From a virus, in the IMG/VR virus record IMGVR_UViG_3300023109_000023, positions 1 to 61,627 of that record: DNA of 61,627 bases; one strand, 5' to 3'. The position numbers and the translations under genes were made by a program. Below, one piece after another: positions 11,751 through 60,063 of the stretch. How positions within the stretch are numbered: position 1 is the first letter of the stretch; each line of letters begins with the position of its first letter. The notes beneath the pieces were generated by a model. The model saw only the letters and a list, made by a program, of their open reading frames with translations, searched no databases and was not told where the DNA came from.

Positions 11751-11777
11751 AATTACCTTGTTCCTTTATAATCATAC

Positions 11778-41668: not shown

Positions 41669-42724
41669 TTATATTGCATCCTTTTTTGAGATTCCTAATA
41701 TTCTAGCCTTCCAACTTTCCATGTCGTCAAGCCGTTCGACTTCTTCCTCGACTAGAGCTTTTTGCATGTCAGCTAATTGAACCATTTGCTTCCTCTGCTC
41801 CTCTAGTTGGAAATTCTTAACGAGCGATAATATACTGGCATGATCGTCACGCCGATTCTTTAGTCGCTCTGCACGGTCACCATTTAATTTCTTAATAAGT
41901 GATTCCATGCGTTTCTCACATTTATCATATTCATCAGTTTTAGATTTTAATACTTCTGCTAGTCTAACAGTCATATCTTGCTGATCCTCAACCTCATTGA
42001 ACATATTATTTAACTTTTCTGTATGAGAAGATATATTTTTTAAATTAATGTAATCTACACAGACATTAATATATAGATTTATTTCGTCTGCTGTAAGATC
42101 TGGTTTGTCCCATGTAGCCCTTATGAATTCAGCCTCAAATAATTTTCTATCTTTATCACTACTGTAGTTACTTATTACTAGGATGAATCTAGGGGAAGAA
42201 AGGTTTCTAACAAGGTTCTTGGCACATTCTATATCGTCATGTGTCATCTTATCTTCAACGAACTCTGTGTGAGCAAATTCGTTAATTTTACTTATAGCCG
42301 TTTTTGTTATTTTAGGCGGGTGGTATTGCCTGTTAATAGCTGTTTCGCTTTCATGGACAAAATTAGGCTCATATTCTCTTAAAAACTCTAATACGCAGAC
42401 ATGGTGCTTGGAGAATCTTTTAACGGTGACATCTGGGAACAGTATTTCTGAAATTTGAAATGCACTCAACCCATTCTCAGCCTGAGCCTTAATAAAATCT
42501 ACTTGAGCTTCGGTTAAATCTATATCTTCCATTTTCTCCCAAGCACTGGTTTCATATTCCAAGTTTTGACTTGCTAGAAATTTCCTAACCGCCCTGCCTT
42601 CTTTTGTGCGACCATCTAGGTCGGGATCACCAAATAGTCTTCTAGTTAAATCGATAAGACTTGGATTTTTCTTAAACTCTTCGGTTAAGAACTTTTGTTG
42701 TTCGTCAGTTAAGTCCATCGACAT
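41669..42724 (-). CDS. Putative terminase small subunit-like DNA-binding protein
   Basis: 351 residues. The N-terminal third looks like two helix-turn-helix units (LIDLTRRLFGDPDLDGRTKE, LSAFQISEILFPDVTVKRFS). The last ~130 residues are a charged coiled coil (RLAEVLKSKTDEYDKCEKRM). Position upstream of the large terminase and this architecture suggest DNA recognition for packaging. It is longer than usual small terminases, so the call is tentative. It overlaps the sigma factor gene by 20 nt. Confidence 0.4.
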   Translation of the reverse strand: MSMDLTDEQQKFLTEEFKKNPSLIDLTRRLFGDPDLDGRTKEGRAVRKFLASQNLEYETSAWEKMEDIDLTEAQVDFIKAQAENGLSAFQISEILFPDVTVKRFSKHHVCVLEFLREYEPNFVHESETAINRQYHPPKITKTAISKINEFAHTEFVEDKMTHDDIECAKNLVRNLSSPRFILVISNYSSDKDRKLFEAEFIRATWDKPDLTADEINLYINVCVDYINLKNISSHTEKLNNMFNEVEDQQDMTVRLAEVLKSKTDEYDKCEKRMESLIKKLNGDRAERLKNRRDDHASILSLVKNFQLEEQRKQMVQLADMQKALVEEEVERLDDMESWKARILGISKKDAI

Positions 42725-43448
42725 CGTCCTCCCCTTTCAGAAATGTGATACCCTTGTCTTGCAGTATTTTTACCGCTTTTTCTTTTAGTAAATTTTTAAG
42801 GTTTTTTATTTGCTTGTAGCCAGCCTTCCTTCCAGACTCACTACTTTTAAAGCCCATCTCTTTGGCTGCTTCTTCGTCTGTTAATTTTTGTACATATAGT
42901 AATTGAAATGCCTGCCACTGTCTTTTATTTAAAGCACCCTTTAATTCATGTATTAATTTACCAATAGATTTATCTATATTATGGTCATCATACTCTTCAT
43001 GATTATTTATTTCGTGATAATGATTTTCTATAGATAATGTAATCTTTACATTGTAAGCTTGTCTTTTTGTTTTTTCCCACTTAGCATATAAAGGACAGCC
43101 CCCATCTTGCTTGCCGCTAACAGTAAACTTACATTCGTTTTCTATAGAATCATTAGAGAACGGACAGTTTAAACAAGGTCTAGCATAATTACTATAATTA
43201 TTTCTTAATATATTTTTAAATTGATTACTTATTATTTTATTAAGCCAAGGCTTTATTGGTCTATCTTGATCCCATTGAGTCCATTTCTTATGTATGTGTG
43301 CACGGATAATTTGGCAGACGTCATCAAAGTCAAGCCAAGATACAGATGTTAAGAACCAGTTGTTGCGCCTTTTATTTAATTCAGCGTCAATTAGTTCTGA
43401 GAAATCTTCGTATTTGTATTCTGGGTCAGGGTCTTTCTTTGTCCTCAT
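42705..43448 (-). CDS. Phage RNA polymerase sigma factor with Cys4 insertion
   Basis: 247 residues. A sigma region 2-like segment (FDDVCQIIRAHIHKKWTQWD, IKPWLNKIISNQFKNILRNN) is followed by a four-cysteine insert (C-x2-C, C, C: RPCLNCPFSN, NECKF, GGCPLYAKW) and a region 4 helix-turn-helix (LNKRQWQAFQLLYVQKLTDE, EAAKEMGFKSSESGRKAGYK). This is a sigma-70/ECF-like layout of the kind used for phage late transcription. It probably recruits host polymerase to late promoters; the GTGTAATAATA-like motifs are candidate targets. Its start overlaps the zinc ribbon gene upstream. Confidence 0.8.
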   Translation of the reverse strand: MRTKKDPDPEYKYEDFSELIDAELNKRRNNWFLTSVSWLDFDDVCQIIRAHIHKKWTQWDQDRPIKPWLNKIISNQFKNILRNNYSNYARPCLNCPFSNDSIENECKFTVSGKQDGGCPLYAKWEKTKRQAYNVKITLSIENHYHEINNHEEYDDHNIDKSIGKLIHELKGALNKRQWQAFQLLYVQKLTDEEAAKEMGFKSSESGRKAGYKQIKNLKNLLKEKAVKILQDKGITFLKGEDDVDGLN

Positions 43449-51662: not shown

Positions 51663-51729
51663 TAAGTCCTTGACTATCAGGGACTTACGCGCGGCGGCCC
51701 GCCGTAAATCGTTGGTATTCAACGACTTA
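51663..51729 (+). repeat. 67-bp triple-dyad element, copy 1
   Basis: Hairpin A arms TAAGTCCTTGA/TCAGGGACTTA, core CGCGCGGCGGCCCGCCG, hairpin B arms TAAATCGTTG/CAACGACTTA. The B loop reads GTATT, the reverse complement of the AATAC loop of copies 2-4, so this half is inverted. Lies between the 51341 and 51805 genes. Confidence 0.92.
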
Positions 51730-51769
51730 CGAAGGTAATAAAATAATTGCTAAATAATTGCTAAAAAGT

Positions 51770-51798
51770 TTGACTTCAGCTAATTTATGCCCTATATT
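51770..51798 (+). promoter_or_regulatory. Leaderless promoter of 51805 gene
   Basis: TTGACT, 17-bp spacer, TATATT, then 6 nt to the ATG at 51805. It fixes the start there rather than at the upstream ATG 51787, which lies inside the spacer. Confidence 0.88.
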
Positions 51799-51804
51799 GT
51801 ATAT

Positions 51805-52083
51805 ATGATTAAGACAATAAATAAAACATTTGTAGCAAGCGTTCACGTCTCTTCCCTTGATGGCGAGGCAATTTCTTTGTGGAATAGTAATACCAAGTCG
51901 TACATTGACATTGACAAGACACATCACGCAATCACTATACAAGCTGAAGACAAGCACGAAGTCAGACGCAAAGTCGCTCGCATGATTCGCACGCTTCAAC
52001 CAAAGTTACAATTTCAAACAAGCATTCCACGTAAGGATGGCGATAATGCCACCTACTACATCCAACAAATTCACCAAAAATAA
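51805..52083 (+). CDS. Small early protein, unknown
   Basis: 92 residues (MIKTINKTFVASVHVSSLDG to NATYYIQQIHQK), alpha/beta, charged; contains KHEVRRKVARMIRTLQPKLQ. Not recognised. Leaderless promoter; no ribosome site. Confidence 0.6.
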   Translation: MIKTINKTFVASVHVSSLDGEAISLWNSNTKSYIDIDKTHHAITIQAEDKHEVRRKVARMIRTLQPKLQFQTSIPRKDGDNATYYIQQIHQK

Positions 52084-52085
52084 CC

Positions 52086-52114
52086 TTGACATAATAGCTC
52101 AAACTCTCTAATTT
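52086..52114 (+). promoter_or_regulatory. Leaderless promoter of 52123 gene
   Basis: TTGACA, 17-bp spacer, TAATTT, then 8 nt to the ATG; directly follows the previous stop codon. Confidence 0.85.
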
Positions 52115-52122
52115 AGATACAT

Positions 52123-52344
52123 ATGACAAACACAATAGAACAAATAAAACGCGAATTAAACTTGGATCTCGACCTTGGCTTGGCACTAGCTGAAGCCGAA
52201 GGCAACTTGAACCACTTAGCCCGTGAGTCAAATTCATCCGATTGGCAAGGCACAATCACGCAAGGCATGACAATTCTCGAAGCCCTGAACGCAGTGCAAA
52301 AAGCAAGAAAAGCCTTCCAAGAAATCAAGCGAAATAAAGCTTGA
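52123..52344 (+). CDS. Small helical early protein, unknown
   Basis: 73 residues (MTNTIEQIKRELNLDLDLGL), two long helices, acidic/basic alternation; a coiled-coil-like protein. Not recognised. 67-bp copy 2 follows 15 nt after the stop. Confidence 0.6.
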   Translation: MTNTIEQIKRELNLDLDLGLALAEAEGNLNHLARESNSSDWQGTITQGMTILEALNAVQKARKAFQEIKRNKA

Positions 52345-52359
52345 CACACTAAAATCCCC

Positions 52360-52426
52360 TAAGTGCTTGACTATCAAGCACTTACGCGGGGCCGCCCGAC
52401 GTAAGTCGTTGAATACCAACTACTTA
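52360..52426 (+). repeat. 67-bp triple-dyad element, copy 2
   Basis: Hairpin A is perfect: TAAGTGCTTGA, loop CTA, TCAAGCACTTA. Core CGCGGGGCCGCCCGACG. Hairpin B TAAGTCGTTG/CAACTACTTA with one mismatch. Flanked by CC and GG, which extend an outer palindrome. Followed by the ~78-bp extension shared with copies 3 and 4. Confidence 0.93.
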
Positions 52427-52504
52427 GGTAAACTTGCCTATGGCGCAGCCCTCGGCCCGCGTCGATCTTATTTGGCTAAAAATAAATCATAATTAAGTTT
52501 GACA
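52427..52504 (+). repeat. Extension shared by copies 2, 3 and 4
   Basis: GGTAAACTTGCCTATGGCGC, a GCCCGCGT block, then CTTATTTGGCTAAAAATAAA and AATTAAGTTTGACA, ending in the -35 box of the next gene. Nearly the same sequence follows copies 3 (52946-53010) and 4 (53378-53455), so repeat plus promoter behave as one unit. Confidence 0.8.
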
Positions 52505-52527
52505 TGGGCAGCCCCATATGCGATAGT
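52499..52527 (+). promoter_or_regulatory. Leaderless promoter of 52534 gene
   Basis: TTGACA, 17-bp spacer, GATAGT, then 6 nt to the ATG at 52534; the upstream in-frame ATG at 52504 is within the promoter. Confidence 0.85.
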
Positions 52528-52533
52528 AGTAAT

Positions 52534-52869
52534 ATGAACATAACAAATATAACATTCTCGAAAATCGATCACAAGCTAATCACAGCACATCTATCCTTTG
52601 ATAGTGCTAACCATGAGCACGGCACTATACGCGCAGAAGGCGTATCTCGTAAGCAGTGCATATTCAATTTATGCAAAGAAGGCAAGTTGCCTTGGAAGTT
52701 GTTCGGTGTAGCTCGCGCATTGGCAATGCAACACAACGACCCTAGGTTTCCCAGGGTTAGCCATAGTAGAGAAGACGACAGACTCGCAGATATCTGTGAC
52801 GATCTGAATTGCTCGATTAGTGAAGCTCGCCACTTTCAGGAGACAGGCGAACACCCCGCAAATTGGTAA
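52534..52869 (+). CDS. Small early protein, unknown
   Basis: 111 residues (MNITNITFSKIDHKLITAHL), alpha/beta; contains KQCIFNLCKEGKLPWKLFGV and DDRLADICDDLNCSISEARH with HTH-like spacing. Not recognised. Followed by copy 3. Confidence 0.6.
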   Translation: MNITNITFSKIDHKLITAHLSFDSANHEHGTIRAEGVSRKQCIFNLCKEGKLPWKLFGVARALAMQHNDPRFPRVSHSREDDRLADICDDLNCSISEARHFQETGEHPANW

Positions 52870-52878
52870 GACTTCTCC

Positions 52879-52945
52879 TAAGTACTTGACTATCAGGTAC
52901 TTATGCGAGGCGGCCCGACGTAAGTCGTTGAATACCAACTACTTA
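52879..52945 (+). repeat. 67-bp triple-dyad element, copy 3
   Basis: Hairpin A TAAGTACTTGA/TCAGGTACTTA (A-U at position 6 where copy 2 has G-C), core TGCGAGGCGGCCCGACG, hairpin B identical to copy 2. It starts 9 nt after the 52534 gene's stop. Confidence 0.93.
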
Positions 52946-53027
52946 GGTAAACTTGCCTATAGCGCAGCGCGCGGCCCGCGTTAATCTTATTTGGCTAAAA
53001 ATAAATCACGATTTATTGCTTTATTGC

Positions 53028-53056
53028 TTGCTATGCACTACCATATGCCTTATGTT
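53028..53056 (+). promoter_or_regulatory. Leaderless promoter of 53063 gene
   Basis: TTGCTA, 17-bp spacer, TATGTT, then 6 nt to the ATG at 53063; upstream in-frame ATGs lie in the promoter. Confidence 0.8.
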
Positions 53057-53062
53057 GTTTAT

Positions 53063-53305
53063 ATGAACAATAATTACGATGATTCACTCGACCGACTTGC
53101 TCACCTCACAGGTATGACTGACCTAGAATATGAAGCCCAGCAAAAGGCTCTCGCTCAGATTGCCCGTTTTGACAGGCTCATCGCTGACGTTAGAAACAGC
53201 GATGAACCTGCGCCGATGACCGAGGTGCACCATAACCATGAAGAGCCCAGCATAGACGCCTATGATGACTATGACTATGGCTACCATGACCAATACGAGC
53301 AATAA
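53063..53305 (+). CDS. Small acidic early protein, unknown
   Basis: 80 residues (MNNNYDDSLDRLAHLTGMTD), helical N-terminus, very acidic Tyr/Asp-rich C-terminus (DAYDDYDYGYHDQYEQ). The charge pattern is like DNA-mimic or inhibitor proteins, but this is only composition. Copy 4 starts 5 nt after the stop. Confidence 0.6.
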   Translation: MNNNYDDSLDRLAHLTGMTDLEYEAQQKALAQIARFDRLIADVRNSDEPAPMTEVHHNHEEPSIDAYDDYDYGYHDQYEQ

Positions 53306-53310
53306 GCTCG

Positions 53311-53377
53311 TAAGTCGTTGATTATCAGGTACTTACGCGGGGCCGCCCGCCGTAAGTCGTTGAATACCAACCACTTA
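53311..53377 (+). repeat. 67-bp triple-dyad element, copy 4
   Basis: Hairpin A arms TAAGTCGTTGA/TCAGGTACTTA with internal mismatches (left arm B-like), core CGCGGGGCCGCCCGCCG, hairpin B TAAGTCGTTG/CAACCACTTA. The shared extension follows. Confidence 0.92.
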
Positions 53378-53449
53378 GGTAAACTTGCCTATGGCGCAGC
53401 CCTCGGCCCGCGTCAACCTTATTTAACCGAAAATAAAACACAATTAAGT

Positions 53450-53478
53450 TTGACATTCGCCCTCAGATATACGATAGT
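53450..53478 (+). promoter_or_regulatory. Leaderless promoter of 53484 mini-ORF
   Basis: TTGACA, 17-bp spacer, GATAGT, then 5 nt to the ATG of a 7-codon mini-ORF. Confidence 0.8.
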
Positions 53479-53483
53479 AAGGT

Positions 53484-53507
53484 ATGACAGAACAACAACC
53501 CAACTAA
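53484..53507 (+). CDS. Seven-codon leaderless mini-ORF (MTEQQPN)
   Basis: ATG ACA GAA CAA CAA CCC AAC TAA lies exactly where the leaderless start should be; the real gene begins 9 nt after its stop with no ribosome site. It probably lets ribosomes load on the leaderless end and reinitiate at 53517, perhaps with regulation by Gln/Pro codons. Confidence 0.45.
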   Translation: MTEQQPN

Positions 53508-53516
53508 TATCAACAT

Positions 53517-53702
53517 ATGATCTCAATCAAAAAAAATCAAAACTTCTCTAATTGGTTCCAAGTATTCGCTTTCGGTAAAATGATAGATGAATTCAGTCGC
53601 AAAAGTAAGGCAATACGTCGTGCTGAAGAATTAGCAGTACAATCAAACCAAAAATACATCAACGTCGAAGGACTAGCACAGAAAATCGGATATGGCAACT
53701 AA
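53517..53702 (+). CDS. Small basic early protein, unknown
   Basis: 61 residues (MISIKKNQNFSNWFQVFAFG), a small AP2/integrase-N-like beta-beta-alpha pattern (NWFQVFAFGKMIDEFSRKSK, AIRRAEELAVQSNQKYINVE), typical of DUF2188-like fragments; not assigned. Overlaps the next gene by 11 nt. Confidence 0.5.
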   Translation: MISIKKNQNFSNWFQVFAFGKMIDEFSRKSKAIRRAEELAVQSNQKYINVEGLAQKIGYGN

Positions 53703-53901
53703 AAAACTCGTACTCACTACAATATCGCAAGGCAAAATTGCCGTTGTAGAAAGCGCCGAAAAGGCAAATGACAAGAGGGGGGAAAGATACATAAGCGAAG
53801 ATTGCTTGGCTGTCAATCTTAAAAGTGGTGCATTTACTGACATTACTGCGACAGGCGCCAACCCCGAAGGTAGACTATATATGTTTACGGAAGATATGTA
53901 A
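53692..53901 (+). CDS. Small early protein, unknown
   Basis: 69 residues (MATKKLVLTTISQGKIAVVE), beta rich. The start overlaps the previous gene; the stop TAA is the first three bases of 67-bp copy 5, so the element abuts the coding end. Confidence 0.5.
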   Translation: MATKKLVLTTISQGKIAVVESAEKANDKRGERYISEDCLAVNLKSGAFTDITATGANPEGRLYMFTEDM

Positions 53902-53965
53902 GTCGTTGATTATCAAGCACTTGCGCGGGGCGGCCCGCCATAAGTCGTTGACTATAAGCGGTTTA
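53899..53965 (+). repeat. 67-bp triple-dyad element, copy 5
   Basis: Arms TAAGTCGTTGA/TCAAGCACTTG, core CGCGGGGCGGCCCGCCA, second half TAAGTCGTTG/AAGCGGTTTA (degenerate). Its first three bases are the stop of the rightward gene; its end is 5 nt from the stop of the leftward gene 53971, so it sits between convergent genes. Confidence 0.88.
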
Positions 53966-53970
53966 TGTAA

Positions 53971-54195
53971 TTAAAACTCTTCCATGAGCAACTCATCAAG
54001 AGCATAGATATCAAGGTCGGGATCGTTATAGCTTGCCCCGTCAGGAGTCCTGAATAAGCCCAATGCCTCAAATTTCTCCACAAGATCAGTATATCCCGCG
54101 CATCTGCGAGCCATCTTATAAATCGATTCGTCATTACCTAACCAAAGCGCAACATTCCAAGTTGCCCAATTCTTCCATCCTTTGTAGTTTTCCAT
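53971..54195 (-). CDS. Conserved phage protein with NWATWNVALW motif
   Basis: 74 residues. The segment GWKNWATWNVALWLGNDESI is a motif I recognise from small conserved phage proteins of unknown role. Ribosome site AGAAGGATAAG, 4 nt after the previous gene's stop, so part of the leftward small-gene cluster. Confidence 0.65.
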   Translation of the reverse strand: MENYKGWKNWATWNVALWLGNDESIYKMARRCAGYTDLVEKFEALGLFRTPDGASYNDPDLDIYALDELLMEEF

Positions 54196-54199
54196 AGTC

Positions 54200-54391
54200 T
54201 TATCCTTCTATTAATTGTTTGAATTGATCGTAAACTTTTTGCTTGCTACCTTTTAGCTCAAACTCTTCCTTGACGATAGAGTAGCAACTTCTACCCCTTG
54301 ACATCTTCAAGCCGTTAAGCTCAAGTCTTAGCCCCCGAAGTAATGTTTTATATCTGAATGCTTCAATTTGTGTTGGTTCTGTTAATATCAT
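54200..54391 (-). CDS. Small early protein, unknown
   Basis: 63 residues (MILTEPTQIEAFRYKTLLRG), helical and basic, with SRGRSCYSIVKEEFELKG; the pattern is seen in small phage proteins of unknown function. Leaderless promoter just upstream. Confidence 0.6.
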   Translation of the reverse strand: MILTEPTQIEAFRYKTLLRGLRLELNGLKMSRGRSCYSIVKEEFELKGSKQKVYDQFKQLIEG

Positions 54392-54397
54392 ATCTTT

Positions 54398-54426
54398 AAT
54401 ATAGTTTAGTTGTTATTGTTTGTAAA
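54398..54426 (-). promoter_or_regulatory. Leaderless promoter of 54200-54391 gene
   Basis: Minus strand TTTACA, 17-bp spacer, TATATT, 6 nt to ATG 54391. It overlaps the end of the upstream gene. Confidence 0.75.
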
Positions 54427-54603
54427 GTCTTCTTTTTCTAATTGTACTCTGATGTATAGGTCGCCATTCTCGTCTTCGTCCATGTCGGCATAATTGCAAT
54501 CTTTAAAATCGCCCATGTCAGCGATACCATCGTCATTTGCAAAAGTATTAATCTTGAATGAACAAATGTCATTTCCTCTGTAGTCTTCAATTTGTATTTT
54601 CAT
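54406..54603 (-). CDS. Small acidic early protein, unknown
   Basis: 65 residues (MKIQIEDYRGNDICSFKINT, then CNYADMDEDENGDLYIRVQL), a short beta-rich acidic protein. No clear ribosome site; probably on the transcript from 54890. Confidence 0.5.
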   Translation of the reverse strand: MKIQIEDYRGNDICSFKINTFANDDGIADMGDFKDCNYADMDEDENGDLYIRVQLEKEDFTNNNN

Positions 54604-54614
54604 ATTCTTATGTG

Positions 54615-54860
54615 TTAAACGATTTCTTCAACCATTTTCATTAATTGTTTTACTTCGTCTAAATTTTGTTGAAGTAAATTGAGTTGTGCAAGTATGCCTT
54701 TATAACCAACATACCCACCATTCATGTGACCCTGCCAAGTGTTGCCTACTTTCTTAAATGAAACATCCCAACCACAATGATAATCATATGCTTTTAGGAT
54801 GCCGTTTGGCAAGAGTTCAAATGTTAGTTCTTTTCCGTTTGTTTTGTCTTTTAATGTCAT
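54615..54860 (-). CDS. Small early protein, unknown
   Basis: 81 residues from the ATG at 54860 chosen by its leaderless promoter (MTLKDKTNGKELTFELLPNG); the longer frame to 54935 reads through the promoter. Beta-rich N-terminus (CGWDVSFKKVGNTWQGHMNG) and a C-terminal helix. Confidence 0.55.
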   Translation of the reverse strand: MTLKDKTNGKELTFELLPNGILKAYDYHCGWDVSFKKVGNTWQGHMNGGYVGYKGILAQLNLLQQNLDEVKQLMKMVEEIV

Positions 54861-54866
54861 AAGTAT

Positions 54867-54895
54867 AAAGTAGTTTAATTTTTGCTCTGTGTCAA
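54867..54895 (-). promoter_or_regulatory. Leaderless promoter of 54615-54860 gene
   Basis: Minus strand TTGACA, 17-bp spacer, TACTTT, 6 nt to ATG 54860; overlaps the 3' end of the upstream gene. Confidence 0.85.
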
Positions 54896-55074
54896 ACAGA
54901 AACACGAATGAATTCTGTAGTGCTGTTACCCACATCAGCGCGGATAAAATGAATTAAATCCTCCTCCAATGCTCGCTCGACTGTGCCAAGATGATCCTTA
55001 AGTTTGCTACTGTAGAGCCAAATCTCTCCGTCCTGCGTTGAATTGATAAGTTCGATTAGTTCTTTTATTGTCAT
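54892..55074 (-). CDS. Small early protein, unknown
   Basis: 60 residues (MTIKELIELINSTQDGEIWL), helix then beta strands. Not recognised. Own leaderless promoter. Confidence 0.55.
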   Translation of the reverse strand: MTIKELIELINSTQDGEIWLYSSKLKDHLGTVERALEEDLIHFIRADVGNSTTEFIRVSV

Positions 55075-55080
55075 ACCAAT

Positions 55081-55109
55081 ACACTAAGGCATCTAACTAA
55101 CTATAGCAA
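55081..55109 (-). promoter_or_regulatory. Leaderless promoter of 54892-55074 gene
   Basis: Minus strand TTGCTA, 17-bp spacer, TAGTGT, 6 nt to ATG 55074. Confidence 0.8.
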
Positions 55110-55139
55110 GAAAAAACTTCAATTAAATGCATTTTGTCG

Positions 55140-55206
55140 TAAGTCGTTGATTATCAAGCACTTGCGCGGGGCGGCCCGCCGTAAGTCGTTGATTACCAAC
55201 CACTTA
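55140..55206 (+). repeat. 67-bp triple-dyad element, copy 6
   Basis: Arms TAAGTCGTTGA/TCAAGCACTTG, core CGCGGGGCGGCCCGCCG, B TAAGTCGTTG/CAACCACTTA. It lies between two leftward genes yet keeps the same plus-strand order A-core-B. Confidence 0.92.
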
Positions 55207-55321
55207 GGAGAACTTCCTTCAACTCCGTGACTGACCACCCAGAAAGCTTGGAAAGCTCCCTGAGGGTCAATGAGATATTTACATCATATTCATTTACGAC
55301 TTTTTCTTTTGTCCACTTCAT
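55193..55321 (-). CDS. Small helical protein ending in 67-bp element
   Basis: 42 residues (MKWTKEKVVNEYDVNISLTL, then RELSKLSGWSVTELKEVLLS), with a helix-turn-helix-like spacing. Its ATG overlaps the stop of the upstream microprotein (ATGA); its stop lies inside hairpin B of copy 6. Supported by coupling, not by homology. Confidence 0.45.
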   Translation of the reverse strand: MKWTKEKVVNEYDVNISLTLRELSKLSGWSVTELKEVLLSGW

Positions 55322-55392
55322 GTCGGTATAATTAAAATTATTATGCAAGGTAGTAAAATCGTCAATCCTATTAATAAAAATATTTCAATCAT
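55318..55392 (-). CDS. Hydrophobic single-helix microprotein (second)
   Basis: 24 residues starting MIEIFLLIGLTILLPC and continuing IIILIIPT: nearly all hydrophobic, one membrane helix. Its start overlaps the stop of the 245-residue gene (ATGA) and its stop overlaps the next start (ATGA), so three genes are translationally chained. Confidence 0.5.
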   Translation of the reverse strand: MIEIFLLIGLTILLPCIIILIIPT

Positions 55393-56126
55393 GAATTTAC
55401 CCCTTCTACTACAAATCCTGTTGCGTCTTTCTTTGCCATGCCTTTTTCGATTAAGCCAACGACAACACCTTTCTTGTCAAGAAAACGCAAATCAGTTTCA
55501 TCACCATTGACGACCTCAAAACCTTTCCATGTCTTGGGTAATTGATTGCGAAATACAACGGCTACATTACCACCCATTAAAAGAACCATTTCGCATTTCT
55601 TGTCGTTATTCTCTGAACGACTAAAAGTCAAATGATAATTGGAAGGAAATTTTGCCTCGCCCTTGACAAAAGGTTTGCCGAGAAAAGAGCACATTCTCTT
55701 GAATGATTTTGTATAATCATAAAATTGAGTTGATGAATGCTTTTCGAGAATAGTTGCACCATCTTCGTTGATCTCATTTTCCCACATGATGTCGCTTGTA
55801 AGATTAGGACGAAATACAGCTTGCATACTTTTCTTTTGCGCTGACTTAATTGAAGAAGTAATCTCTTTAGATAATTTCTGAAAAAATTCGAGTTTGTTCT
55901 CGAAGAACAACTTTGTCTTGTTCACTCGCGAATCTTGGACAGATCCCATTTGACCACGACCTGCCGTATTGAGACAAGATGCCGTGCAACCCTTTGAGCG
56001 CCATTGGCAAGTTTCGTATCCTGATAAATTTGCTGGGGCAAGGTGAATGCCTTTAGTTATGTAACCTAATTTCTCGCCTTTGAGAATTTTTTGATTACCT
56101 GATGTGAGAAGTGTTGTTTTAATCAT
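55389..56126 (-). CDS. Conserved phage protein with CLNTAGRG motif
   Basis: 245 residues from ATG 56126, set by its leaderless promoter; the frame extends to 56174 without support. Motifs ANLSGYETCQWRSKGCTASC, LNTAGRGQMGSVQDSRVNKT and PNLTSDIMWENE match a conserved phage family with a Cys-rich N-terminus and CLNTAGRG; function unknown. First gene of the chain with the microprotein and 42-residue gene. Confidence 0.75.
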   Translation of the reverse strand: MIKTTLLTSGNQKILKGEKLGYITKGIHLAPANLSGYETCQWRSKGCTASCLNTAGRGQMGSVQDSRVNKTKLFFENKLEFFQKLSKEITSSIKSAQKKSMQAVFRPNLTSDIMWENEINEDGATILEKHSSTQFYDYTKSFKRMCSFLGKPFVKGEAKFPSNYHLTFSRSENNDKKCEMVLLMGGNVAVVFRNQLPKTWKGFEVVNGDETDLRFLDKKGVVVGLIEKGMAKKDATGFVVEGVNS

Positions 56127-56132
56127 AAGTAC

Positions 56133-56161
56133 ATAGTAGGGCACTTTTCCAAATACAGCAA
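56133..56161 (-). promoter_or_regulatory. Leaderless promoter of 55389-56126 gene
   Basis: Minus strand TTGCTG, 17-bp spacer, TACTAT, 6 nt to ATG 56126. Confidence 0.85.
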
Positions 56162-56191
56162 GAAAAAAGATCAATTAAATGAAAATAGTTG

Positions 56192-56258
56192 TAAGTCCTT
56201 GCGTATCAAGCACTTACGCGGGGCGGCCCGCCGTAAGTCGTTGAATATCAACGGTTTA
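56192..56258 (+). repeat. 67-bp triple-dyad element, copy 7
   Basis: Arms TAAGTCCTTG/CAAGCACTTA around CGTAT, core CGCGGGGCGGCCCGCCG, B TAAGTCGTTG/CAACGGTTTA. It sits between divergent promoters. Confidence 0.92.
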
Positions 56259-56276
56259 AAAAAGTTAAACTTCTTC

Positions 56277-56305
56277 TTGACTATCGGCCCTGGTGGAGGT
56301 AGGGT
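56277..56305 (+). promoter_or_regulatory. Leaderless promoter of 56311 gene
   Basis: TTGACT, 17-bp spacer, TAGGGT, then 5 nt to the ATG. Confidence 0.8.
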
Positions 56306-56310
56306 AAGGT

Positions 56311-56523
56311 ATGAAAAATACAATAACACCATACGAAGTGGGCCGACTACTCAGCGAAGCCCAGGAAAGAATCAACGATTCGCTCTCATGCGCAGACGAA
56401 CTAACTCCCGCAGACTATGAAGAAATCACCAGGTGGAGAGATGATGTCGAGAAGATTTTCGCTATACTGGTGGATGAGATGTCATGGGTGGCTGACGGCA
56501 AGCATATGCTAACGAACCACTAA
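56311..56523 (+). CDS. Small helical early protein, unknown
   Basis: 70 residues (MKNTITPYEVGRLLSEAQER), helical, acidic. Not recognised. A single gene between copies 7 and 8 with its own leaderless promoter, the most compact cassette here. Confidence 0.6.
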   Translation: MKNTITPYEVGRLLSEAQERINDSLSCADELTPADYEEITRWRDDVEKIFAILVDEMSWVADGKHMLTNH

Positions 56524-56528
56524 TGCCG

Positions 56529-56595
56529 TAAGTCCTTGCGTATCAAGCACTTACGCGAGGCGGCCCGCCGTAAGTCGTTGAGTATCAACGATTTA
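56529..56595 (+). repeat. 67-bp triple-dyad element, copy 8
   Basis: Same A half as copy 7, core CGCGAGGCGGCCCGCCG, B TAAGTCGTTG/CAACGATTTA. Starts 5 nt after the 56311 gene's stop. Confidence 0.92.
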
Positions 56596-56747
56596 CGAGG
56601 TTTCTTACCTAGGGCCCGCCCGCAGGGCGAAAGCTTATTTACTTAAATTCTATTTCCTCTCTGCCGTCAAACAGAGAAGTAAACATGAGAAAGAAAGCAA
56701 AGAAGGTCGGCATTAGAAAAAACAAACAAACGAAAAATTCTAATATA

Positions 56748-57023
56748 CTATCCATTGTAAACCCCCTTCATTTGATCGGATATACCCAAGTCTACGAAGT
56801 TGTCCTCTTCTTCGATGTCCTCGGCATTTGGTGAATGATGAAGCAATGAAGACTCATCTTCAATGTCTGACTTTTGCGCATCTAGTAAACCATGCTCACC
56901 CAAAACCTCTTGAGACTTAATCTCTGATACAAAATCTTCGAGAGAAGTTTTAAGACCAAGACCTTTGGAGTCTTGGACGGCGTGTTTAATGATGGCGATT
57001 CTTTGATCTTGTGTTAGTGTCAT
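56748..57023 (-). CDS. Small acidic early protein, unknown
   Basis: 91 residues (MTLTQDQRIAIIKHAVQDSK, then EDIEEEDNFVDLGISDQMKG), helical start, acidic C-terminus. Not recognised. Leaderless promoter overlaps the upstream gene's end. Between this gene and copy 8 are ~150 bp with no convincing gene. Confidence 0.55.
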   Translation of the reverse strand: MTLTQDQRIAIIKHAVQDSKGLGLKTSLEDFVSEIKSQEVLGEHGLLDAQKSDIEDESSLLHHSPNAEDIEEEDNFVDLGISDQMKGVYNG

Positions 57024-57029
57024 AATAAT

Positions 57030-57058
57030 AAGGTAATGTAGTTTTTGGTTTTATGCAA
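57030..57058 (-). promoter_or_regulatory. Leaderless promoter of 56748-57023 gene
   Basis: Minus strand TTGCAT, 17-bp spacer, TACCTT, 6 nt to ATG 57023. Confidence 0.75.
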
Positions 57059-57410
57059 ACTTTTTTTCTCTTTTTTCTTCGCACATTGCAATGAGTAAAT
57101 TCTCGTGAGCTTTTCCGTCAAGTTGAAATTGTCTCATGAGTTTAGAAATGTCAATAGGTTTTTGCCATCCTAGCACATCATCATATAAAGCAAGAGGAAC
57201 TTTCTTCCTGTCTCCGTCCTCATCAAATTGAGTGCCAAAAACTGCAACTTCAAAAGTTTCATTCTGATAAGTACCATAAGGCAAAGACCAATCATCTTCT
57301 ATGTCGCCCGCAATAACAGAAAATAAATATCCGTTGTCAAGCTCAAGTGATGCAGTCCATCTTTGAATATCTTTGTGGTGTGTGAATTTTAAATCATTAA
57401 ATGTTTTCAT
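57051..57410 (-). CDS. Small early protein, unknown
   Basis: 119 residues (MKTFNDLKFTHHKDIQRWTA), a beta-rich N-terminal domain (SLELDNGYLFSVIAGDIEDD, GTYQNETFEVAVFGTQFDED) and a basic helical C-terminus (CEEKREKKFA). Not recognised. Own leaderless promoter. Confidence 0.55.
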   Translation of the reverse strand: MKTFNDLKFTHHKDIQRWTASLELDNGYLFSVIAGDIEDDWSLPYGTYQNETFEVAVFGTQFDEDGDRKKVPLALYDDVLGWQKPIDISKLMRQFQLDGKAHENLLIAMCEEKREKKFA

Positions 57411-57417
57411 ATAATAA

Positions 57418-57446
57418 AATATATACTGTTAGTTATTGTCTGTCAA
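57418..57446 (-). promoter_or_regulatory. Leaderless promoter of 57051-57410 gene
   Basis: Minus strand TTGACA, 17-bp spacer, TATATT, 7 nt to ATG 57410. Confidence 0.85.
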
Positions 57447-57653
57447 CTAAAACTTTAATGCCTGAATAGAAGTATTCTCTCTGCACCATTTTCTCAAAGG
57501 ATGATGAGCTTTCGCACTCAAGTGAGTCAAATACTGTTTCCCATTAGTTGCCATAAGCATGAAGCCTTTAGCTGTTGCACGGATGTCTTTGATCTCAGGA
57601 CATTTACGCAGTTGTTTTAGTATCTTTAAGTTTCCACTATCTCTATGTTTCAT
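57447..57653 (-). CDS. Small basic early protein, unknown
   Basis: 68 residues (MKHRDSGNLKILKQLRKCPE, then SAKHPL-like HHPLRKWCRENTSIQ), basic with three strands and a helix. Not recognised. Leaderless promoter upstream. Confidence 0.5.
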   Translation of the reverse strand: MKHRDSGNLKILKQLRKCPEIKDIRATAKGFMLMATNGKQYLTHLSAKAHHPLRKWCRENTSIQALKF

Positions 57654-57660
57654 ACTAATA

Positions 57661-57689
57661 ATATAAGCTTGTTAGGTGGTGGTTGTCAA
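57661..57689 (-). promoter_or_regulatory. Leaderless promoter of 57447-57653 gene
   Basis: Minus strand TTGACA, 17-bp spacer, TTATAT, 7 nt to ATG 57653. Confidence 0.8.
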
Positions 57690-57709
57690 ATATAATTTAC
57701 TTAATGATG

Positions 57710-57776
57710 TAAGTCGTTGACCATCAAGCACTTACGCGGGGCGGCCTTCCGTAAGTCGTTGAATATCAATGCTTTA
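57710..57776 (+). repeat. 67-bp triple-dyad element, copy 9
   Basis: Arms TAAGTCGTTGA/TCAAGCACTTA, core CGCGGGGCGGCCTTCCG, B TAAGTCGTTG/CAATGCTTTA. Sits between divergent leaderless promoters. Confidence 0.9.
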
Positions 57777-57794
57777 AAGAAGTGAAACTTTTTC

Positions 57795-57823
57795 TTGACT
57801 TTTGCTCGGTGCAGGCGTACATT
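57795..57823 (+). promoter_or_regulatory. Leaderless promoter of 57829 gene
   Basis: TTGACT, 17-bp spacer, TACATT, then 5 nt to the ATG at 57829. Confidence 0.85.
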
Positions 57824-57828
57824 TAGGT

Positions 57829-58158
57829 ATGGAATTAATAATAAACGATATAGACCCTAGCGAAGATACATTTCTCGCATCAATCTCAAACGACGACTGC
57901 CAGGAAATGATCCTGACCTGCTCCTTCTACACAGACGAGCAGGAAGAATTGTACGGGGATCAAGTTTCCGCAATTCATGTGGTCGCCTACTTCGATTCTG
58001 TTCAGGAAATTACAGCTTTCGGGGATGATGGATTACCGATGACCCCACCTGTTGAGCTAGTAAAATCAGCCATGGATCAGCTCAAAGATCTTGAGCTAAC
58101 AATTGAATCTAGAGAATGTGATGTTGATTTTTCCCCTCGATACTACGATCTAATTTAA
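57829..58158 (+). CDS. Small acidic early protein, unknown
   Basis: 109 residues (MELIINDIDPSEDTFLASIS), acidic, with a beta layout similar to small inhibitor proteins; not recognised. Start set by the promoter, not by the earlier ATG at 57802. Copy 10 follows 5 nt after the stop. Confidence 0.6.
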   Translation: MELIINDIDPSEDTFLASISNDDCQEMILTCSFYTDEQEELYGDQVSAIHVVAYFDSVQEITAFGDDGLPMTPPVELVKSAMDQLKDLELTIESRECDVDFSPRYYDLI

Positions 58159-58163
58159 TCTCA

Positions 58164-58230
58164 TAAGTCGTTGATTATCAGGCACTTATGCGGGGCCGCC
58201 CGCTGTAAGTCGTTGAATACCAACGATTTA
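58164..58230 (+). repeat. 67-bp triple-dyad element, copy 10
   Basis: Arms TAAGTCGTTGA/TCAGGCACTTA, core TGCGGGGCCGCCCGCTG, B TAAGTCGTTG/CAACGATTTA. Between two rightward genes. Confidence 0.92.
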
Positions 58231-58247
58231 AAAAATGAAGGTTTCCC

Positions 58248-58276
58248 TTGACTTTCTGAGCGTTTGGAGGTAATTT
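58248..58276 (+). promoter_or_regulatory. Leaderless promoter of 58283 gene
   Basis: TTGACT, 17-bp spacer, TAATTT, then 6 nt to the ATG. Confidence 0.88.
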
Positions 58277-58282
58277 ATTTGT

Positions 58283-58525
58283 ATGAATACAATAAACAAT
58301 ATACAACAAATGACCGCCCAGGAACAATCAGATTATATTATGGGCATAGTGATGAACGCCGTACCAAGCATTGATGACCACGTCGGTGACATTATAGGAA
58401 TTATTGACGATTTGGTCTGTGAGGATAATTGCACAGACAGCGGGTATGATTTCCAGGCTGGAGTCAGAGACATGAGGTTTGAGAACGACGATTTCATTCT
58501 CGAAGTCGAACTACCAGTAAATTAG
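58283..58525 (+). CDS. Small acidic early protein, unknown
   Basis: 80 residues (MNTINNIQQMTAQEQSDYIM), acidic, helical start with IIDDLVCEDNCTDSGYDFQA. Not recognised. Followed by copy 11 and a bidirectional terminator. Confidence 0.6.
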   Translation: MNTINNIQQMTAQEQSDYIMGIVMNAVPSIDDHVGDIIGIIDDLVCEDNCTDSGYDFQAGVRDMRFENDDFILEVELPVN

Positions 58526-58535
58526 TAAAATCCCC

Positions 58536-58602
58536 TAAGTACTTGATTATCAGGTACTTATGCGGGGCGGCCCGCCGTAAGTCGTTGACTACCAAGGACT
58601 TA
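58536..58602 (+). repeat. 67-bp triple-dyad element, copy 11
   Basis: Arms TAAGTACTTGA/TCAGGTACTTA (perfect with one wobble), core TGCGGGGCGGCCCGCCG, B TAAGTCGTTG/CAAGGACTTA. Followed 20 nt later by a true intrinsic terminator, so the element itself is probably not the terminator. Confidence 0.92.
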
Positions 58603-58620
58603 TGAGATAAACCTTCCCAC

Positions 58621-58652
58621 AAAAAAGCCCCTCCGTTTGGAGGGGCTTTCTA
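58621..58652. terminator. Bidirectional intrinsic terminator
   Basis: AAAAAGCCCCTCC-GTTT-GGAGGGGCTTTC: eight strong pairs, U run on one side and A run on the other. Between the convergent genes ending at 58525 (rightward) and 58671 (leftward). Confidence 0.92.
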
Positions 58653-58670
58653 TATTTGTCAAGCCTTTAT

Positions 58671-59534
58671 TTAAGCTTCTACCAATTCACCTTCAACTAC
58701 TTCCATGTCAAGAACTTGCTCGACATGGTTTTTAATGTCGAAGCTGACCTCACCATCAAGAACGGAATGCAAGGCATCCGAGCGATTAGGTAAGGCAACT
58801 AAGTTTCCCTTGTATACCTCGGTGAAAGCATTGTAAAGAGAATTTACATTGCGATCCCAAAATTCGGGATGATCGGAGGATTCCCATTGATTGACAACAT
58901 CCATGATTTTAGACTTTGGCAAAGCACCTGCCTTGCAAGCTCTAATGACAAGATCATTAGCATGGGAACTTGAAAGATCGAAATCCTTGTAGGCATTGAT
59001 GCGATTGTCTTGACCATTCCAAAAGCCAAATAATTTACCCAATGCACGATTGATAGTAAAATCAAGATCTTGCAAAATGTTACGAGTATGGCGACGCGCT
59101 AATTTAATAGTATTGGTAAAAATAAGATTGTCGCAAACAAAGGGGGCATCACCTGCGCACAATCCCGCAGGAAATGTTTTGTCGTGAGAGTTGCGAAGAC
59201 CAACTACACAACCACGATCAGATGCCTTACGATTAGGGTGATCGACTGAGAATAAACCAAAATAGTGGTTATCGTTGCGAGCAAGAGAGTGAACCTCATC
59301 TTGAATGGTGAAACCATTGGTTTCTAAAAAACCTTTGGTGCGATGAACCAACGCGTCGTGAGCGATTGGCTGATAAGAGACGGCTCTCTCACCATTGGCA
59401 TTTTCTTTCTTGCGATACTCTACAGGAGGAGTAGGAACTCCGACTACTTGATCGAAATCTACGAGAGTACGATTGCCTCCGCAGATGTGAAGGTTTACTT
59501 TGGGTGAGTTGTTTGTATTTTCTGTTGTATTCAT
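58671..59534 (-). CDS. DUF932-family phage protein
   Basis: 287 residues. YQPIAHDALVHRTKGFLETN, NHYFGLFSVDHPN, VGLRNSHDKTFPAGLCAGDA and PFVCDNLIFTNT are the signature of the DUF932/phage-plasmid-like family (role unknown, often in plasmid and phage early regions). C-terminus acidic. Leaderless promoter at 59541-59569. Confidence 0.85.
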   Translation of the reverse strand: MNTTENTNNSPKVNLHICGGNRTLVDFDQVVGVPTPPVEYRKKENANGERAVSYQPIAHDALVHRTKGFLETNGFTIQDEVHSLARNDNHYFGLFSVDHPNRKASDRGCVVGLRNSHDKTFPAGLCAGDAPFVCDNLIFTNTIKLARRHTRNILQDLDFTINRALGKLFGFWNGQDNRINAYKDFDLSSSHANDLVIRACKAGALPKSKIMDVVNQWESSDHPEFWDRNVNSLYNAFTEVYKGNLVALPNRSDALHSVLDGEVSFDIKNHVEQVLDMEVVEGELVEA

Positions 59535-59540
59535 GATAGT

Positions 59541-59569
59541 AATAATATAGATGTGATTGTTTTTGTCAA
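59541..59569 (-). promoter_or_regulatory. Leaderless promoter of DUF932 gene
   Basis: Minus strand TTGACA, 17-bp spacer, ATTATT, 6 nt to ATG 59534. Confidence 0.7.
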
Positions 59570-59572
59570 TAG

Positions 59573-59818
59573 TTAATTGCGAGAAAAGTAGTCTTTATCG
59601 TCAAATTTCCCTTGTTGGGTTTTTTCGTAGGCACTTGCCTTTTCAGCGATTGATCTCAAGACTAAGCCAATGACTGTAACCATGTCAATTTGATCGGAGT
59701 CATTTTTATCAATATTGGGCATAATGAATTCATCCCAAATATATTCCATTGCATTATTCATGGCTGATTCTGAGTCTAAGATTTTATCTTCTGAGTTGTC
59801 TGAATTAGGAATAAACAT
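59573..59818 (-). CDS. Small acidic early protein, unknown
   Basis: 81 residues (MFIPNSDNSEDKILDSESAM), helical, with DMVTVIGLVLRSIAEKASAY. Strong ribosome site AAGGAGG; overlaps the upstream gene's end by 14 nt, so co-transcribed with it. Confidence 0.55.
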   Translation of the reverse strand: MFIPNSDNSEDKILDSESAMNNAMEYIWDEFIMPNIDKNDSDQIDMVTVIGLVLRSIAEKASAYEKTQQGKFDDKDYFSRN

Positions 59819-59930
59819 TTAATGCCTCCTTGTATTTTTGTTTGCGGTGTAAAGTCTTACTCTTGACTTTGTGAGGGCGACTCTTGGTAAAGACAATCGC
59901 TTTTCTTATCTTGATTTCTCTTGCTTTCAT
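59805..59930 (-). CDS. Very small basic protein
   Basis: 41 residues from ATG 59930 (MKAREIKIRKAIVFTKSRPH, then KVKSKTLHRKQKYKE), strongly basic. Its leaderless promoter defines the start; the longer frame to 60056 is repeat-derived. Possibly nucleic-acid binding. Confidence 0.5.
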   Translation of the reverse strand: MKAREIKIRKAIVFTKSRPHKVKSKTLHRKQKYKEALNVYS

Positions 59931-59936
59931 ATAAGT

Positions 59937-59965
59937 ATAGTAAGCTATATAAGTAATTATAGCAA
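59937..59965 (-). promoter_or_regulatory. Leaderless promoter of 59805-59930 gene
   Basis: Minus strand TTGCTA, 17-bp spacer, TACTAT, 6 nt to ATG 59930. Confidence 0.85.
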
Positions 59966-59996
59966 GAAAAAAGTTAAGTAAATTTGCGTTTTGTTG

Positions 59997-60063
59997 TAAG
60001 TCGTTGAATATCAACGGGTTGTGCGGGGCGGGCTGACCTAACCCCTTGATAACCAAGGAGTTA
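59997..60063 (+). repeat. 67-bp triple-dyad element, copy 12 (divergent)
   Basis: Arms TAAGTCGTTGA/TCAACGGGTTG, core TGCGGGGCGGGCTGACC, B TAACCCCTTG/CAAGGAGTTA. The B stem is largely rewritten while pairing is kept (nine of ten pairs), the clearest compensatory case. Between two leftward genes. Confidence 0.85.

Follow-up and report, generated by a model that had tools for sequence, protein, structure and literature searches.

Several kinds of repeated intergenic unit have been described with which the element studied here can be compared. REP and BIME sequences are extragenic palindromic repeats, the attC site has an R'' box of the form RYYYAAC, and the primary accounts of the units called PeSLs in T4-type phages are reportedly those of Arbiol in 2010 and Comeau in 2014. 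Excerpts of two papers present the PeSL of T4-type phages as an early promoter combined with a stem-loop (PMC4503421, PMC3950731). An excerpt on attC sites and CALINs in phages (PMC9892861) describes imperfect inverted repeats around a centre, located near small genes, also in integrase-less virulent phages, with divergent directions in one phage and an R' box of GTTRRRY, and another reports predicted Rho-independent bidirectional terminators in the T4-like phage pf16 (PMC5587285). For Stenotrophomonas phage DLP6, 25 consensus sequences from PHIRE, 22 of them in groups of two, are reported as predicted promoters (PMC5349666). Here we analysed the virus record IMGVR_UViG_3300023109_000023, the whole of which (61,627 bp, linear in IMG/VR, 38% GC) is called the window, and in it a 67-bp intergenic element present in twelve copies.

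The results showed that the twelve copies belong to a large, mainly phage-borne family found in dozens of uncultured phage records, in which each element consists of two 25-bp near-palindromic arms (TAAGTCGTTGA-N3-TCAACGACTTA) flanking a GC-rich spacer, and that these elements are seams where genes are gained, lost, permuted and inverted, a conclusion which is well supported. The reading we prefer, with a probability of roughly 0.55, is that the element is a bidirectional boundary between early transcription units that doubles as a recombination seam for cassettes of one or a few genes. The boundary role in this reading is reasoned from the placement of the elements, from the spacer variants and from phage DLP6, and it is likewise from the exchanges seen that the element itself would appear to mediate the shuffling.

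A first-pass annotation had placed twelve 67-bp copies in the window, and all of them were recovered by a gap-free alignment (mean column identity 89%), by a covariance model built from the twelve copies, which on both strands of the whole record at E <=0.01 matched only these 12 places, and by a position-weight caller, partly trained on the window copies with arm length fixed at 25 and spacers of 5-40 bp, which gave 0 calls in 20 mononucleotide shuffles of the window. The whole-record search thus bore out the statement that the late module holds none. The + strand score of the covariance model exceeded the - strand score for every window copy, so the constant plus-strand order that had been described holds for all 12, while in the family polarity is not uniform and relatives such as G029 (L119) hold copies which score best on either strand. 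Similarly, the invariant 67 bp is true of the window and is a property of its lineage, as spacers vary in the family. The claim that all copies are situated between genes stands for the likely genes; the mechanical list of open reading frames (ORFs) contains TTG-start frames that overlap copies 4, 7 and 12. Some copies were also said to touch stop codons, and the first TAA of copy 5 is indeed the stop codon of ORF 53692-53901.

Gene gain and loss at the elements can be followed between the window and the relative G003, in which all 9 element places fall within 179.7-189.0 kb of 200 kb. The features of the window that enter this comparison are as follows, all on the + strand.

51663-51729, +: copy 1, arm of 25, spacer of 17 and arm of 25 bp; flanks against G003 left 92%, right 36%
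52360-52426, +: copy 2; flanks against G003 181104 right 72%, left 44%
52879-52945, +: copy 3; flanks against G003 180674 92.5% and 67.5% (right 67.5%)
53311-53377, +: copy 4; flanks against G003 181104 95% and 78%
53899-53965, +: copy 5, in a convergent gap; flanks against G003 182064 85% and 84%
55140-55206, +: copy 6; flanks against G003 182906 left 86%, right 45%
56192-56258, +: copy 7, left edge of a cassette not present in G003
56311-56523, +: small gene (ORF), the extra cassette between copies 7 and 8, missing at the matching place in G003
56529-56595, +: copy 8, its first base the start of a 1259-bp match to G003
57710-57776, +: copy 9, inside which the 1259-bp match begun at copy 8 ends; left edge of two cassettes absent from G003
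57802-58158, +: gene of the first extra cassette between copies 9 and 11, a listed ORF with a TTG start
58164-58230, +: copy 10, from the alignment and the covariance model
58283-58525, +: gene (ORF) of the second extra cassette between copies 9 and 11
58536-58602, +: copy 11, its first base the start of a 1043-bp, 92% match to G003
58624-58649, +: separate canonical terminator past copy 11, real by pattern as the first-pass annotation had it
59997-60063, +: copy 12, the lowest score of the twelve; flanks against G003 186388 96% and 76%

Window 56119-56253 aligned to G003 183699-183833 across copy 7, and window 56529-57769 aligned to G003 183772-185001 from the first base of copy 8, so that the window holds two elements with a gene between them where G003 holds one element. 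Further right, the preceding block ended within copy 9 and window 58536-59578 aligned to G003 184942-185984 from the first base of copy 11, which leaves three elements with two genes between them in the window in comparison to one element in G003. The extra cassettes in the window were therefore one (copies 7-8) and two (copies 9-11). At the first site a single G003 element corresponds to copy 7 by its left side and to copy 8 by its right side, and at the second site one corresponds to copy 9 on the left and to copy 11 on the right. When 100-bp flanks were compared with G003 at both sites, the right sides agreed (71% and 92%), while the left sides were weaker at 62% and 58%, in comparison to 34% to 49% for other pairings, and rest on the longer alignments. 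At the remaining copies compared, flank sharing with G003 was on the left only for copies 1 and 6, on the right only for copy 2, and on both sides for copies 3, 4, 5 and 12.

The same pattern was observed across the family. Over 57 loci with 520 elements, the two flanks of an element matched to a single element in 209 cases, to two different ones in 212 (a figure that includes permutations) and to two elements with differing strands in 18; double matches with one flank at an element numbered 164 and with neither flank at one 53, and single flanks matched 2161 times at an element and 1005 times elsewhere. These counts are directional and not independent, and near-identical contigs were removed from them. 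Before that removal the first three values were 407, 282 and 17, respectively, which are inflated because some near-identical contigs were kept, with 12 loci on contigs already in the set excluded; the de-duplicated gap, terminator, spacer and flank counts given here excluded 22 near-identical or repeated loci. Gene adjacency gave a second measure. Reciprocal-best neighbours stayed adjacent across 188 of 1042 element gaps (18%), in comparison to 138 of 347 element-free gaps of at least 60 bp (40%) and 1846 of 2882 shorter gaps (64%). Counted per phage pair, element gaps were less conserved than element-free gaps of at least 60 bp in 58 pairs, more in 13 and equal in 109, and less conserved than shorter gaps in 285 pairs, more in 29 and equal in 118. 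Adjacency across convergent gaps was kept in 13/94 with an element in comparison to 12/12 without one (>=60 bp) and 25/32 shorter ones, and across divergent gaps in 14/35, 15/24 and 15/20, respectively. With the flank matches and the G003 alignments, these values agree with the suggestion made at first that genes or cassettes are exchanged at the elements.

The spacer distinguishes one phage from another. Its length is near-constant within a phage and ranges from about 15 to 35 bp across phages, with a class of 16-17 bp in the window lineage and others of about 15, 21-23, 24-25, 28, 33 and 35 bp (130 places, hand-picked one per place from 252 rows on both strands and in overlapping stretches; a further 72 element places were also selected by hand, and some of the analysed stretches were chosen around known matches). 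The modal length of their own phage was found for 433 of 522 elements, and 487 were within 1 bp of it (57 loci), while random assignment of spacer lengths gave a mean of 183 and a maximum of 199 modal elements in 1000 trials. Spacer GC content averages 83%. For the 49 phages in the identity comparison (49 of 59 loci kept), arm identity was 0.731 within a phage and 0.689 between phages, and spacer identity was 0.712 within and 0.585 between, the latter taken at equal lengths and in the better orientation.

Some of these values bear on the origin of the copies. That they could be leftovers of one recent tandem duplication is ruled out, since the family covers dozens of phage records. It could also be proposed that the element is a selfish short repeat, MITE-like or REP-like, which spreads between genes without benefit, and its high copy number and phage-specific versions would be expected of such a repeat. 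The 53 double matches with neither flank at an element were informative here, of which 10 were collinear and close: in five of them, from three places, the stretch opposite the element of the other phage is an arm-less 63 or about 157 bp, as a spreading repeat would leave. The other five hold an arm-like site without a called element, three of them high-scoring, and in none of the 10 rows do the flanks simply abut; moreover there is usually one copy per gap at near-constant length, the arms are hardly homogenised within a phage, and none of the 14 large records, several of which are fragments, gave a match to the Y1-type transposase (RAYT). We thus regard a selfish repeat as very improbable.

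The near-constant spacer and the conserved arms lead to a different possibility, a dedicated exchange site, at which an unrecognised phage recombinase or nuclease would bind the arms and exchange DNA in or beside a spacer of matching type, attC-like in effect and not in ancestry. Genes are exchanged at the elements, the arms are too divergent for easy homologous recombination, and in the comparison of L128 and L297 the arm by the shared flank is also common (24/25 bases), each phage keeping its own spacer type (17 and 22 bp), all of which this possibility would account for. No such enzyme was recognised, however, with a tyrosine recombinase in 0 of 21 distinct records (33.8-205.9 kb, in sets of 17 and 14, several of them fragments), a serine resolvase in 0 of 14 large records and the Y1 transposase likewise in 0 of 14; many records are fragments, so a missing recombinase or RecA match is weak as an absence. 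The switch points are scattered and do not fall at one base (between L273 and L277 the change begins inside the arm although the flank is 100% identical), and copies beside convergent gene ends suit a transcriptional role equally. We therefore consider a dedicated exchange site unlikely. A related proposal, which we would also call doubtful, is an integron-like platform without integron integrase in virulent phages, in which a dedicated protein on the arms would define the slots and the spacer would be a lineage tag deciding which copies recombine.

The first-pass annotation had described each copy as a triple hairpin or dyad, and this was not supported in the larger sample. In 517 distinct elements the Watson-Crick share of self-pairing was 0.721 for arm A and 0.724 for arm B, with 0.723 expected for each from independent columns, and pairing of the outer halves (0.705, expected 0.719) and of the inner halves (0.733, expected 0.740) was no higher; neither was there an excess in 127 elements chosen by the structure model, a choice that leans towards pairing. 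In the window copies alone a slight excess was seen in two of four pairings, for arm A (10/500 permutations as high) and for the inner long pairing (39/500). The spacer centre was weakly symmetric over 49 phages (paired 0.586 in comparison to 0.567, 2/200 permutations as high), and in the window it was paired at 0.67 in comparison to 0.71 from base content, so the central "dyad" is mostly GC content. One long attC-like hairpin, proposed by RNAalifold, and a set of three stable hairpins both lost support for want of covariation. Because covariation was absent in 517 elements, the arms look like DNA half-sites read by a protein and not like maintained RNA or cruciform hairpins, which supports the DNA-level function suggested initially.

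Placement may link the elements with transcription. They occupied 236 co-directional, 81 convergent and 78 divergent gaps, in comparison to 866, 215 and 192 element-free gaps, respectively (gene calls in the gap and terminator counts were by greedy ORF choice). A canonical terminator was present in 67 of 380 element gaps of at least 60 bp in comparison to 20 of 319 element-free gaps, so most element gaps have no other visible terminator. As terminators are rarely inside the elements, either the element stops transcription by other means or nothing stops there, and a terminator function of the element is putative. Where the spacer is 33 or 35 bp long, it contains terminator-like hairpins. L119 and L296 share both flanks (92% and 95%) and a complete arm while the spacer is wholly replaced, a 17-bp GC spacer in one corresponding to a 28-bp spacer with a 7-base A/T tract in the other. 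Promoter-like matches did not fall wholly inside any window copy; on the minus strand, two of them extend across the edges of copies 5 and 7.

The cultured phage DLP6 (KU682439.2; L371-L374) provides a further possible link. It has 24 exact copies of the 11-bp half-site TCAACGACTTA in comparison to 0.05 expected, all between annotated genes, including seven + pairs 25-26 bp apart as direct repeats, and 21 of the 24 have the orientation of the genes beside them; a full arm was absent (0 at score >=12), and a DLP6 stretch gave no match to plasmids. In the published terminator table, five rows start within a few bases of a half-site (PMC5349666). Judged by number and placement, the promoters published for this phage are probably the same half-site motif. 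The first-pass annotation knew of no described phage element with this structure, and to this extent it needs correction, while for the two-arm element itself no describing paper was found among open-licence PubMed Central (PMC) papers, in the ranked part of the hits. As a side observation, 6 papers print the half-site letters, among them the DLP6 paper and, as a primer, one on ICEclc.

These data can also be viewed in terms of an RNA element, whose hairpins at transcript ends, on either strand, would terminate or protect mRNA, with shuffling as a by-product of the repeats. The terminator-like hairpins of the 33- and 35-bp spacers are in line with it, as are such repeats without arms in some relatives, the co-orientation of 21/24 DLP6 half-sites with genes, several of them ahead of terminators, and the fact that 5/5 folded sequences (4 copies, one on both strands, folded as DNA) beat their shuffles; a looser scan also found arm B of copy 8, alone among the window copies, to be terminator-like. 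Set against this are arms without covariation in which about 28% of pairs are not Watson-Crick, no match to an Rfam family at gathering score in the window, window spacers with no T-run directly after them, and a spacer dyad barely above the expectation from base content. An RNA element accordingly appears rather unlikely.

Under the preferred reading of a boundary doubling as a seam, a phage or host protein would bind the four half-sites (TAAGTCGTTGA), probably as dimers, and the bound arms together with the GC-rich spacer would stop or isolate transcription from both sides, so that a cassette with its own promoter might be tolerated in any order or orientation. Because the boundaries within one genome have one layout, recombination between copies is possible; it would proceed most simply via a phage RecA/UvsX-type pathway, by which a cassette could be deleted, inserted or swapped, and selection or conversion may hold the spacer length uniform within a phage. 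RecA-family matches with open frames of 366-385 codons were found in 10 of 16 large records, and in 8 of 14 element-bearing large records, 6 of them over the family cut-off.

Several observations weigh against this reading. RecA is available without tracking the element, since it matched in 2/2 element-free relatives and was not found in 6/14 element-bearing records, and arms about 73% identical within a phage with a short spacer are a poor substrate for ordinary homologous recombination. Many matched flanks lie off the called elements (the 1005 single, 53 double and 164 half-at-element double matches), and when the switch point was mapped within exchanged elements there was no single crossover place. 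On the transcriptional side, a strict scan put a canonical terminator inside only 3 of 522 elements, the window spacers lack a T-run and the terminator near copy 11 is a separate one, and the greater frequency of terminators in element gaps may mean that the element does not itself perform this function. Three of the 24 DLP6 half-sites, in one gap, oppose both neighbouring genes. Finally, the arms are not spaced in one helical phase across phages; helical phasing was not supported, as spacers of 17 and 28 bp fit and those of 22 and 25 bp do not.

Family membership was assessed by several searches, which answered the earlier call for profile and covariance searches over phage and metagenome contigs with a large family beyond the window. 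A terminase search gave 80 related viral contigs, and 15 of the 50 loci searched whole carry the element, several of the element-free ones being short fragments. The one-arm pattern gave at least 119 stretches in viral contigs, whereas 257 billion bases of bacterial and archaeal genomes yielded only 13; viral contigs held no match to a stricter initial pattern. The arm-pattern loci among the matches listed numbered 80, with subsets of 66 and 50 used downstream, and 45 of 50 further viral records matched the element model, which is not an independent rate because the records were picked for holding the arm. The DUF932-like early protein led to 51 loci, part of them on contigs already in the set, and of 25 such records searched whole 15 matched the model and 10 did not, including two of about 200 kb. 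Isolate phages gave no DNA match to the element region. Their terminase matches were at 21.6% to 27.6% (best 30 of 66 records), and the DUF932-like protein had a 27.1% match in 5 Salinibacter phage records. Three element queries against isolate phages returned no convincing match. Two Aeromonas phage matches hold one exact half-site and a loose look-alike, and a Bordetella phage gave a further candidate match.

Among the 13 bacterial and archaeal stretches, L145, a 4.7-kb contig binned as Flavobacteriaceae, has six element matches and L138 has one weak two-arm match. The occurrence of the same 25-mer upstream of genes in some bacterial chromosomes would be compatible with an operator, replication or packaging site, on which a phage regulator or replication protein would sit at many early-region copies; dyads with half-site conservation and the clustering in one region, in the window and at the 9 places in G003, would suit it too. 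The distance to gene starts varies, convergent gaps are occupied as well, and such a site alone would leave the exchange and the spacer unexplained, for which reasons we hold this alternative to be quite improbable.

Single arms in bacteria were seen elsewhere as well. Single arm palindromes with <=3 mismatches occur in L343-L354 (G129, G130), L355-L357 and L360 (Fibrobacter metagenome-assembled genomes, MAGs), and the stretches read around these bacterial single arms hold no second arm at element spacing. One Akkermansia MAG has the palindrome at 14 places and another genome from that phylum at 7, and both have it upstream of argS, there beside a TGTTCC-N4-GGAACA palindrome that we take to be parS-like. 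The idea that the arm arose generally in the chromosomes of one host clade was not supported, as only 4 of 387 Verrucomicrobiota genomes match (<=2 mismatches) and 1 of 26 genomes of the genus Akkermansia (<=3 mismatches), that one being the centre genome itself. In a Prevotella MAG (L358, near 2040) the palindrome is, by eye, within a longer hairpin with a T-rich tail, directly after an apparent tRNA 3' end. Among relatives, L310 has no called elements and carries repeats with one arm half degenerate (CAATTATATGATATTCAACGACTTA), and L327, L330 and L331, which have no recognised arms, carry repeats of the AAAATCG-CCCGC-CGATTTT type; both kinds are possible intermediates.

The record itself is that of a tailed phage, because it has a large terminase (phrog_2), a PhoH-like protein, structural-protein matches and a sigma-70 region 2 match below cut-off. 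The last of these lies at 42705-43448, where region 2 (just below cut-off) and region 4 both match under the Pfam cut-offs, a possible phage sigma factor. A Kyanoviridae Gp96-like gene adjoins the element region and a GP88-like gene is inside it. Beside the terminase, 40114-41040 has an ERCC4-type nuclease match (PHROGs) with a weak C2H2 zinc-finger-like N-terminus, and at the left end, 1-11760, the DNA read by eye appears to be a single long coding region on the minus strand that continues beyond the record, possibly tape-measure-like.

Large virulent phages have many small early genes that are readily gained and lost, and it has long been asked how such genes are exchanged so cleanly. Here the recognition unit is conserved, the spacer is specific to a lineage, and the seams of exchange are directly legible in the sequence. 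The element can also serve to flag, in a simple way, the hypervariable early regions of metagenomic phages, regions that may hold anti-host and counter-defence genes, and the half-site in DLP6 offers a way into laboratory work.

In comparison to known systems, the element is not attC, not a known Rfam RNA and mostly not a canonical terminator. R'' and R' boxes were found in 0 of 519 elements and 0 of 12 window copies (shuffled ends, 0 of 1038), and length is nearly uniform within a phage, which sets the element apart from attC; the IntI-type tyrosine recombinase was likewise missing from the 21 records, but CALINs are defined by its absence, and the host might supply an integrase. With REP and BIME sequences it shares the extragenic palindromic repeat and differs in being mainly phage-borne, with arms paired at fixed spacing and no REP-type (Y1) transposase recognised in the 14 records, so that neither family suggested at first as a possible identity applies. 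Bidirectional boundaries where transcription changes strand are, as far as the excerpt goes, a likeness to pf16, the difference being the rarity here of a terminator inside the element by the strict scan. To DLP6 it is tied by the exact 11-bp half-site, the 25-26 bp period, the intergenic position and, for some, the neighbouring terminator hairpins, although the half-sites there are direct repeats with no full arm. The PeSLs of T4-type phages, which are compared here by partial description only, differ in that the window copies contain no promoter and convergent gaps are also occupied, and in that the present element is a two-dyad unit that has a phage-specific spacer length and shows no covariation to maintain its pairing. 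In function, by analogy, the element nevertheless seems to resemble the PeSLs, the closest described idea: a repeated regulatory unit, dense among small early genes and tied to modular gene shuffling between related phages.

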